Shown here in pieces: positions 4,879 through 11,740 of a stretch of DNA of 64,000 nt (its first letter is position 1; the number at the start of each line of letters is the position of its first letter). Source of the DNA: a virus. The notes beneath the pieces are model-generated. The model saw only the letters and a list, made by a program, of their open reading frames with translations, had not been told where the DNA came from and did not search any database. The DNA is taken from IMG/VR virus record IMGVR_UViG_3300018065_000011, positions 62,001 to 126,000 of that record; one strand, 5' to 3'. Position numbers and translations under genes: made by a program.

Positions 4879-5026
4879 GGGAGACACAGGATCTCGTTTC
4901 GAGGTCACAAGCACGGTAAGACGCAGCATTCATAACGCTGAGACTGTGGGTTCAATCCCCACCCCCGCTTTCATGGCGGGGTAGTCAAATCGCAAGAACA
5001 CCTGACACACTCTCCTGTGTCCTCCC
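4879..5026 (+). ncRNA. permuted tRNA-Met(CAU)-like RNA, broken in the D-loop
   Basis: Outer stem 4879-4890 pairs with 5014-5026 (one bulge). CACAAGC is at 4906-4912, preceded by inner-stem strand AGGT whose partner ACCT follows the tRNA body; ACTCT precedes the outer-stem partner. Inside, the tRNA is circularly permuted. The 3' part comes first: D-loop end ggtaa and D-stem gac, anticodon arm with ttCATaa, T-arm gtggg ttcaatc cccac, acceptor ccccgct (4963-4969). A short ttcat linker follows, then the 5' part: acceptor ggcgggg (4975-4981), D-stem gtc and aaat. Joining aaat to ggtaa would give a normal D-loop. The flanking motifs are shared with seven other loci. It is either a permuted tRNA precursor or a tRNA-mimicking RNA. 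Confidence 0.8.
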
Positions 5027-5071
5027 GACCCTTCCAGACTTCAACCCGCAACCCGAAAGGAGGACAATCTG

Positions 5072-5197
5072 ATGCCTGACGATGATGACGATGACGATGA
5101 TCGCTTGCCCGCGTTGGTGAAGTCTGGTCTATCACGCTTGGTTGTCAGCCAAGAGGTCATGGGTTCAAATCCCATACGCGGGGCTGGAGGTCCGTAA
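5072..5197 (+). CDS. possible acidic micro-ORF overlapping tRNA-Asp
   Basis: An AAAGGAGG site at 5057-5064 lies 7 nt before an ATG that encodes 41 residues beginning MPDDDDDDDDRLP. Most of the frame runs through tRNA-Asp, which argues against a real product, but the strong ribosome site makes it worth recording. Confidence 0.2.
   Translation: MPDDDDDDDDRLPALVKSGLSRLVVSQEVMGSNPIRGAGGP
5108..5183 (+). tRNA. tRNA-Asp(GUC)
   Basis: Acceptor cccgcgt/acgcggg, D-stem gtga/tcac, anticodon stem cttgg/ccaag with loop ttgtcag (GTC), T-arm atggg ttcaaat cccat, discriminator G. Confidence 0.9.
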
Positions 5198-5261
5198 CTC
5201 AGTTGGTCAGAGTGCCGCCCTTACAAGACGGAAGTCGCCGGTTCAACTCCGGCCGGGCCTA
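5188..5261 (+). tRNA. tRNA-Val(UAC)
   Basis: Acceptor aggtccg/cgggcct, D-stem actc/gagt, loop cttacaa (TAC), T-arm gccgg ttcaact ccggc. The anticodon stem has one C-A mismatch. A second Val(UAC) body with an insertion lies at 11122-11249. Confidence 0.87.
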
Positions 5262-5302
5262 CAAAGGAAGGTTTTGGAGTATATACAGGAAGGAGCGAAA
5301 CC

Positions 5303-5842
5303 ATGAACGGAGAAGCATTTGCATTTTCCGACGAATCGCGCAAAGCTCAGTTTGGCGCGACTAAAGTCTGTTCTAGGTGTCGTAGGGAGCTTCCTGTTGC
5401 CGACTTTTCGTATGCGAGCCGTGTAAAGCTCTATGCCTGGTGTCGCGACTGCGCACGGACTTATCAGCGGGAAGTCTATCGGACGTTTGAGGGGCAGATG
5501 AAGCATCGGGTTCGTGCGGCGCGAGGAAGGGCTCAGCGATTTGGTTTAGATTTCGATCTTGCCGTTCAGGATCTTCTTGAGTTGTGGGACGAACAGGACG
5601 GGAAGTGTGCAATTTCAGGATTGCCCATGGTCATCGATAGCGAAGAGGAGAAAGGGAAGCAAGCGTTTCGTCCGTCCGTTGACCGCATCGTTCCGAAACG
5701 CGGATACGTTCGGGGGAACATTCGGCTGGTGACGACTATCGTAAACTTCGGGATCAACAAGTGGGGTCTCGATCCGTTTCTTGCCATGTGCGAAGGTGTT
5801 GTTCAAACCATAGGCGAAAGGAAGGCATACCATGACTGTTGA
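5303..5842 (+). CDS. HNH-family endonuclease
   Basis: This 179-residue protein has two N-terminal CxxC pairs (CSRC near 26, CRDC near 49) and an HNH-like core LWDEQDGKCAISG followed by SVDRIVPKRGYVRGNIRLV. The same core is seen in the protein encoded at 24378-24923, so the two are paralogues. Such free-standing nucleases are often mobile; it sits between a tRNA cluster and the TROVE operon. The start follows an AGGAG site, and its end overlaps the TROVE gene by 11 nt, so it is cotranscribed with it. Confidence 0.75.
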   Translation: MNGEAFAFSDESRKAQFGATKVCSRCRRELPVADFSYASRVKLYAWCRDCARTYQREVYRTFEGQMKHRVRAARGRAQRFGLDFDLAVQDLLELWDEQDGKCAISGLPMVIDSEEEKGKQAFRPSVDRIVPKRGYVRGNIRLVTTIVNFGINKWGLDPFLAMCEGVVQTIGERKAYHDC

Positions 5843-11249: not shown

Positions 11250-11251
11250 CT

Positions 11252-11381
11252 GAAGCGACCAAACCCGAAAGGGCTCACAAGCAAAGAAGCTCATTTGGCT
11301 GAGCGTCTCGATCATAACGAGAAGGTAGCTGGTTCAACTCCAGTCCTTGCACTCTGTTCAGCCCCTCAACTCGGTCGCTTC
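11252..11381 (+). ncRNA. tRNA-Met(CAU)-like body enclosed by the RNA module
   Basis: Outer stem gaagcgacc (11252-11260) pairs with ggtcgcttc (11373-11381). Compared with the copy at 10953 an A-T pair is replaced by G-C. Inner stem GGGCT (11271-11275) pairs with AGCCC (11360-11364). CACAAGC and ACTCG are in the standard places. Body 11281-11351: loop atcataa (CAT), T-arm ctgg ttcaact ccag, and the same acceptor gcaaag/ccttgc with an A-C mismatch. Confidence 0.72.
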
Positions 11382-11389
11382 CACTATTC

Positions 11390-11533
11390 GATCAACGCCA
11401 ACAGATCAATCTCACAAGCATTGTTGGTTCGATTCCAACCCCCGCCACTCATGGCGGGGTAGCCAAATGGTAAAGGCACCGGTACAAGGAACCGGCGTGA
11501 AAACGCAATCAGGTTTTTCACTCGGCGTTGATC
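11390..11533 (+). ncRNA. circularly permuted tRNA-like RNA (loop acaagga)
   Basis: Outer stem gatcaacgcc (11390-11399) pairs perfectly with ggcgttgatc (11524-11533). Inner stem AATCT pairs with AGGTT; CACAAGC is at 11413-11419 and ACTCG at 11520-11524. The T-arm (gttgg ttcgatt ccaac) and acceptor 3' strand ccccgcc (11440-11446) come first. A 6-nt linker actcat follows, then acceptor 5' strand ggcgggg (11453-11459), D-arm and anticodon arm ccggt acaagga accgg. Read in register the anticodon would be AAG (Leu) with C at position 33, which is abnormal. Identity uncertain. Confidence 0.75.
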
Positions 11534-11591
11534 AACTTTCCCTTCTCGGGTGCGGCTCTCGCGAGCCCCCGATTTTCACCCCAACAGTATT

Positions 11592-11740
11592 GGTCAATGC
11601 CAACAGATCAACCTCACAAGCATCATGTTGGTTCGAGTCCAACCTCCCCCACCCATGGGGGAGTAGCCTAACTGGAAAAGGCACCAGACGTGTAAATCTG
11701 GCGTGTAAACGCAATCAAGGTTTCTCACTCGGCGTTGACC
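11592..11740 (+). ncRNA. circularly permuted tRNA-Tyr(GUA)-like RNA
   Basis: Outer stem ggtcaatgcc (11592-11601) pairs with ggcgttgacc (11731-11740). Relative to the copy at 11390, stem positions covary. Inner stem AACCT pairs with AGGTT (the other copy has AATCT). CACAAGC is at 11615-11621, ACTCG at 11727-11731. Order: T-arm gttgg ttcgagt ccaac, acceptor ctccccc (11644-11650), linker acccat, acceptor gggggag (11657-11663), D-arm, anticodon arm ccaga/tctgg with an 8-nt loop cgtgtaaa (GTA after U33). No other tRNA-Tyr is seen in the window. Confidence 0.77.

Follow-up and report, generated by a model that had tools for sequence, protein, structure and literature searches.

A TROVE-VWA gene flanked by tRNA-bearing RNAs

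We analyzed a 64,000-nucleotide stretch (the window) of a giant phage, corresponding to bases 62001-126000 of the 372,162-base virus record IMGVR_UViG_3300018065_000011. In this stretch a gene for a predicted divergent TROVE-VWA (Ro60-like) protein lies among RNAs in which a tRNA is combined with a shared helical module. Seven tRNA-bearing copies (A-G) are found between 4.9 and 11.8 kb, and an eighth (H) lies at 29.5 kb, outside the interval originally considered (Table 1). The TROVE-VWA gene is followed by genes for a protein of no known family (p309), a JAB-like peptidase, a ubiquitin-like candidate and a ThiF/E1-like adenylyltransferase, and a probable tRNA-less copy of the RNA sits 3' of the ThiF gene.

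Table 1. RNA copies and operon genes in the window, with positions counted from its first base.
Feature	Positions	Strand	Description	Basis
Copy A	4883-5021	+	Circularly permuted tRNA, anticodon CAU, join in D loop	Sequence, fold, module scan
Copy A module	P1 4883-4891/5013-5021; CACAAGC 4906-4912; CACTC 5008-5012	+		
Divergent TROVE-VWA (Ro60-like) protein	5832-7724	+	630 residues; Pfam VWA_2 only	Predicted fold
p309	7732-8661	+	Conserved operon protein; two conserved cysteines near C terminus; no family match	
JAB-like peptidase	9227-9613	+	Pfam Prok-JAB 1.9e-4, just under cut-off; conserved in operon	
Ubiquitin-like candidate	9603-9860	+	85 residues; C-terminal RPKTPFG conserved	
ThiF/E1-like adenylyltransferase	10134-10706	+	Pfam ThiF 3e-25; PADLOC E1-E2	
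Probable tRNA-less copy (tentative)	~10752-10814	+	CTCACAAGC at 10775-10783; P2 AGATC/GATCT; Y strand CTCTC; weak P1	
Copy B	10823-10949	+	tRNA-Glu(UUC); module is variable-loop hairpin 10872-10921	Sequence, fold, module scan
Copy C	10953-11080	+	Module encloses complete tRNA-Ala(CGC)	ARAGORN, module scan
Copy D	11122-11248	+	tRNA-Val(UAC); module is variable-loop hairpin 11172-11221	Sequence, fold, module scan
Copy E	11252-11381	+	Module encloses complete tRNA-Met(CAU)	ARAGORN, module scan
Copy F	11390-11533	+	Circularly permuted, Leu-like, closed acceptor; anticodon loop ACAAGGA, no U33	
Copy G	11590-11742	+	Circularly permuted, Tyr-like, closed acceptor; anticodon loop of 8 nucleotides	
Copy H	29471-29618	+	Circularly permuted, Gly UCC-like; loop CATCCAA, no U33; two tRNA-Ser genes flank	

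The tRNA-bearing copies show three topologies. Copies A, F, G and H have a circularly permuted tRNA, which runs from the T arm into the 3' strand of the acceptor, then through a linker of a few bases into the acceptor 5' strand, the D arm and the anticodon arm. Copies B and D keep the normal tRNA order, the module forming a hairpin within the variable loop, while in C and E the ends of a complete tRNA continue into the module. One handle is found at three different tRNA positions. The 5' and 3' ends pair into a stem in A, C, E, F, G and H, and B and D hold this stem as an internal hairpin. Of the module-bearing copies, ARAGORN calls only two, C (10980, Ala CGC) and E (11280, Met CAT), whose tRNAs are uninterrupted and in normal order. 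The architectures of B, D, F and G were read from the sequence and from removal of the module; the permutation of A is a hand reading, with no ARAGORN call after circular rejoining.

An earlier note on this DNA had proposed that these are Y RNAs for the phage TROVE protein, on the grounds of three observations. The TROVE-VWA gene indeed lies between copy A and the remaining copies. The description of an arm added to tRNA folds holds as far as a shared module is present on all copies, but A, F, G and H are permuted tRNAs and not arm additions. The duplication of ordinary tRNAs by the anticodons of several copies extends further than was noted, to the Leu-like F, Tyr-like G and Gly-like H; ordinary phage tRNAs also encode every isotype of the module copies.

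A conserved module independent of the tRNA

The module begins with a helix, P1, which leads through an internal loop (its 3' strand ending in ACTC) to a second helix, P2, with closing pairs CT/AG, and then through an inner loop (YACAM, followed by GC) to the tRNA. Its conserved consensus is YACAMGC opposite CAG...ACTC. The heptamer CACAAGC occurs seven times on the plus strand between 4906 and 11621, six times in copies A, B, D, E, F and G and once, at 10777, in the probable tRNA-less copy; copy C has the variant CACACGC. A candidate pseudoknot, in which the strand preceding P2 would pair with the P1-P2 loop, can be seen by eye in A, B, F and G, and none is seen in C. Scanning the remainder of the phage record for further copies gave matches at control level only.

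Across 64 copies from related loci, P1 forms 7.58 of 8 possible pairs, compared with 4.29 of 8 when partners are swapped, and P2 forms 4.92 of 5, compared with 3.04. Several pair types occur at most helix positions, giving strong covariation. Because this set was selected on pairing, the unbiased test is a scan with strand and reversed controls. Over 702 kb of related loci, the strand of the TROVE gene has 103 occurrences of CYYACAMGC, versus 24 on the other strand and 25 in each of two reversed controls, and some of these occurrences are tRNA-Val anticodon loops. A combined P1 and P2 module score of at least 13 is reached at 48 of the 103 gene-strand sites, versus 0 on the other strand and 2 and 1 in the reversed controls. 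The handle motif in the form CTYACAMGC itself reads like a tRNA-Val anticodon loop (CTTACAAGC).

Some related loci (L008, L012, L014, L027 and L072) have tRNA-less modules built around two hairpins. Since some copies hold no tRNA, the module is an independent unit, as expected of a protein-binding handle.

The 630-residue protein is predicted to have a TROVE-VWA fold

By sequence, the protein has a match to VWA_2 (2e-10, Pfam). Searches of Pfam, NCBIfam and PDB sequences gave no TROVE match, the Pfam family vWA_Ro60 did not match the 630-residue protein, and the hhalign alignment of its family with canonical Rsr was restricted to the VWA part. A structure model was built from an alignment of 28 sequences, with a predicted local distance difference test (pLDDT) score of 80.8. 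The best Foldseek matches of the whole model, 9kop (6.5e-8), 9l5y (1.7e-6) and 1yvp (1.4e-5), are all TROVE structures. The TROVE domain alone gave no significant Foldseek match. When this domain was compared with Foldseek's 1000 best chains using VIA-align, Ro60, Rsr and TROVE structures filled places 1-7 (Z 6.4-8.3), the next chain having a Z of 5.7. The DxSxS metal site of the VWA domain is also intact, with D425, S427 and S429 invariant in the 28 family members. From the modeled fold, we conclude that this is a divergent TROVE-VWA (Ro60) protein.

RNAs and TROVE gene occur together

Searching from the protein yielded 28 viral loci, seven bacterial loci (six named as Myxococcota groups, one as an uncultured proteobacterium) and the phage record KX853510. 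A module was found within the examined stretch in 25 of these 36 loci.

Searching from the RNA, motif and T-arm patterns were run over viral contigs and the records were sorted by module quality, ignoring the protein, with the Y strand of the weakest two checked by eye. Allowing a gap of up to 14 returned mainly tRNA-Val anticodon loops at gap 11, spelling CTTACAAGC, and the scan was rerun with shorter gaps. Among the matches listed, 17 distinct records have a convincing module, and the TROVE gene is present in 15 of them, the remaining two being linear fragments of 110 and 23 kb. Of the 20 listed records whose motifs are weak or look-alikes, none has the gene.

A conserved operon with a ubiquitin-like candidate

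The gene order TROVE-p309-JAB-Ubl-ThiF, where Ubl is the ubiquitin-like candidate, is kept in nearly all loci, with TROVE first. The RNAs mostly start a few hundred bases past ThiF; in the bacterial loci L035, L036 and L039 they lie directly upstream of TROVE. The operon occurs in phages and in Myxococcota, so it is not confined to phages.

The 85-residue ubiquitin-like candidate has no Pfam or NCBIfam match. In a 29-sequence alignment, between 0 and about 20 variable residues come after its RPKTPFG motif; judged from the sequences, this is the pattern that a ubiquitin-like precursor would show if a peptidase trims it. No E2 enzyme was recognized; p309 has its two conserved cysteines but no family match. 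Named E1/JAB/Ubl systems gave remote matches only.

Neighboring features of the window

Two tRNA end-processing enzymes are encoded on the plus strand, the tRNA-His guanylyltransferase Thg1 (20683-21483, 5.4e-30) and the RNA 2'-phosphotransferase KptA/Tpt1 (31064-31621, 8.2e-49). Directly 3' of copy G lies a bacterial small signal recognition particle (SRP) RNA (11744-11836, plus strand; 57.7 bits, above the Rfam cut-off), which only two of the 16 related records have, the present one and another nearly identical to it. A degraded tRNA-like stretch with no ARAGORN call (19783-19874, plus strand) follows a tRNA-Glu(CUC) on its 3' side. Polyamine genes encode an S-adenosylmethionine decarboxylase (285-629) and a pyruvoyl-dependent arginine decarboxylase (21504-22109), both on the plus strand. 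On the minus strand, a cluster related to nicotinamide adenine dinucleotide (NAD) (38238-46293) includes NUDIX/NrtR, an ADP-ribosylglycohydrolase, an NAD synthase and a weak nicotinate phosphoribosyltransferase (NAPRTase) match.

Spliced tRNAs, decoys or Y RNAs

Circularly permuted tRNA genes are known in Cyanidioschyzon and some archaea, and our initial reading was of permuted, spliced tRNAs. The module would then be a splicing signal or a ribozyme that is excised, with the ends joined to yield extra translating tRNAs, as in the red-algal and archaeal genes. The order within A, F, G and H is that of a permuted tRNA gene, a tRNA call is restored in many copies once the module is removed, and the phage has both KptA and Thg1. 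In fungi and plants, KptA takes off the 2'-phosphate left by tRNA splicing. However, the enclosed tRNAs, seen in C and E and in 15 of the 64 copies, require no splicing, and modules without any tRNA exist. Of 54 module tRNAs, 13 lack uridine 33 (U33), versus 18 of 392 ordinary calls (p=1.1e-5, a significance inflated by kinship of the sequences), and all isotypes of the module copies are redundant with ordinary tRNAs. No RtcB, PF01974 splicing endonuclease or Rnl2-type ligase was found in the 372-kb record, although the host could supply these and the record may be incomplete. Splicing also leaves the linkage to the TROVE gene unexplained. This reading was dropped after the tRNA-less modules, the enclosed tRNAs, the loss of U33 and the failure to find splicing genes, and we now consider it improbable.

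The tRNA bodies could instead be decoys against host anticodon nucleases, acting independently of TROVE, with the module merely blocking processing or stabilizing the RNA. Anticodon loops of many isotypes are present, and a large tRNA set together with RNA-processing enzymes would fit a phage under tRNA-directed defence. Such decoys would account poorly for the tight co-occurrence with the TROVE operon, for a handle that itself covaries strongly and has a conserved motif, or for the tRNA-less forms, and we think them unlikely to be the explanation. Binding of the module by p309 or ThiF in place of TROVE, which would make these operon RNAs and not Ro-type Y RNAs, is also unlikely: p309, JAB, Ubl and ThiF accompany the RNAs as regularly as TROVE does, but the known partners of Y RNAs are TROVE proteins (PMC4726728, PMC8394870), and the likeness of the permuted copies is to YrlA, a bacterial Y RNA.

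We consider it likely that these RNAs represent a Y RNA of a new form, in which the module would be the TROVE handle and the tRNA body a mimic. The Y RNA proposal of the earlier note thus gains support from the TROVE fold match, the reciprocal co-occurrence, the YrlA-like order, the tRNA-less modules and the loss of U33, with TROVE binding itself a prediction. By analogy with known Y RNAs, P1, the ACTC internal loop, P2 and the YACAM inner loop would form the handle by which the ring-shaped TROVE-VWA protein holds each RNA, and the tRNA body, attached at the acceptor end, the variable loop or the D loop, would be displayed as the mimic. We infer that the mimic probably recruits or occupies tRNA-acting proteins, such as a nuclease, a ligase or a modification enzyme, as a scaffold or decoy in the manner of YrlA, and that the Ubl, ThiF and JAB proteins probably tag a protein partner.

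Several observations weigh against the Y RNA interpretation. Pfam TROVE (PF05731) has no match at E<=10 in any of the 28 family members, and the Ro60 fold matches are loose (rmsd about 12 Å, Z about 8). Eleven of the 36 TROVE/operon loci lack a convincing module, some of them being incomplete and others possibly holding diverged copies that the scan missed. U33 and normal anticodon loops are kept in many copies, and the KptA and Thg1 genes of the phage mean that RNA ends are processed in this system. The handle also differs in sequence from known sites: in the 64-copy consensus it reads YACAMGC / CAG..ACTC, compared with AUGC..CUA / ACUUG in the YrlA basal stem, and the vertebrate Ro site is not matched, since by inspection the phage modules have internal loops on both strands.

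More tentatively, the TROVE ring, the whole-tRNA Y RNAs and Ubl conjugation may form one system common to giant phages and Myxococcota: the RNAs would be bait for proteins attacking or processing tRNA, and Ubl would be attached to the protein that is caught. Here, complete tRNAs of many different identities, arranged in three ways and seemingly set on one protein handle, are linked to TROVE and a ubiquitin-like operon. The purpose of the tRNA part of a Y RNA then becomes directly testable, by asking which tRNA-acting protein is caught, and a conflict over tRNA between phage and bacterium is suggested. There is also a caution for annotation, as permuted tRNA genes in phage genomes could be Y RNAs. 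A literature search found no account of phage permuted tRNAs, TROVE-linked whole tRNAs or a TROVE-Ubl operon, in a coverage that excluded key YrlA papers (PMC4201824, PMC6281776, PMC10870794) and Burroughs and Aravind 2016, where an earlier description is possible.

Comparison with known systems

Like circularly permuted tRNA genes, copies A, F, G and H place the 3' half ahead of the 5' half. Unlike those genes, they have a very short acceptor linker and a shared handle-like module, enclosed and tRNA-less forms exist beside them, and no splicing endonuclease was found. The operon has the ThiF-type E1, the JAB-like peptidase and the small protein with FG and then a variable tail at its end that are typical of prokaryotic E1/JAB/Ubl operons, but differs from these in that a TROVE protein and Y RNA-like RNAs are joined to it and no E2 is recognized. 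Ro60/Rsr proteins, including Thermus phage phiLo Ro60 (PDB 9l5y) and D. radiodurans Rsr (2nvo), likewise have a VWA domain with a DxSxS metal site after a helical-repeat domain. In contrast to them, the phage protein has an extra N-terminal β-rich region and a fixed Ubl/JAB/ThiF operon.

In known Ro ribonucleoproteins, Ro60 is bound by the stem of the Y RNA, and PNPase is among the other proteins that YrlA engages with its tRNA-like part (PMC8394870, PMC4726728). The vertebrate Ro site is a 7-bp helix with a single bulged C and a three-nucleotide bulge opposite (PMC4726728). The earlier note had remarked that the internal loop is no obvious match to the metazoan Ro site, and the different handle consensus bears this out. 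Likeness to the YrlA basal stem is limited to a loose resemblance of the 3' strand (ACTC-G).

Matches to the Rfam YrlA model (RF02553, gathering threshold 69 bits) are all under threshold: 28.1 bits for G and 22.8 bits for F, both aligned at model positions 29-81, and 26 bits near H, aligned at 23-88. One bacterial copy matches the model over its full length, also under threshold (38.2 bits). In Paraliomyxa miuraensis, a canonical Rsr gene is followed by a YrlA (60.4 bits), which is preceded by a second YrlA-like stem with no tRNA domain (L040, 1400-1634), and a separate locus (L037) has the divergent TROVE operon with its own enclosed tRNA-Arg-like RNA. As this organism holds both, the canonical Rsr/YrlA pair and the divergent operon coexist and are distinct.

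Like YrlA, the phage RNAs have a tRNA-like domain on a basal stem with internal loops, encoded beside a Ro60-type gene, and copies F, G, H and, by reading, A share its order of T arm, closed acceptor and D arm; B, C, D and E do not. In known bacterial Y RNAs tRNA mimicry is partial, comprising the D, T and acceptor arms only (PMC8394870). Unlike YrlA, the phage RNAs hold an anticodon arm, some keep the normal tRNA order (variable-loop or enclosed), and a genome can have as many as eight of them, differing in tRNA identity. What is new is the use of whole tRNAs with anticodon arms, in several topologies, together with the consensus of the handle and the association with a ubiquitin-like operon.
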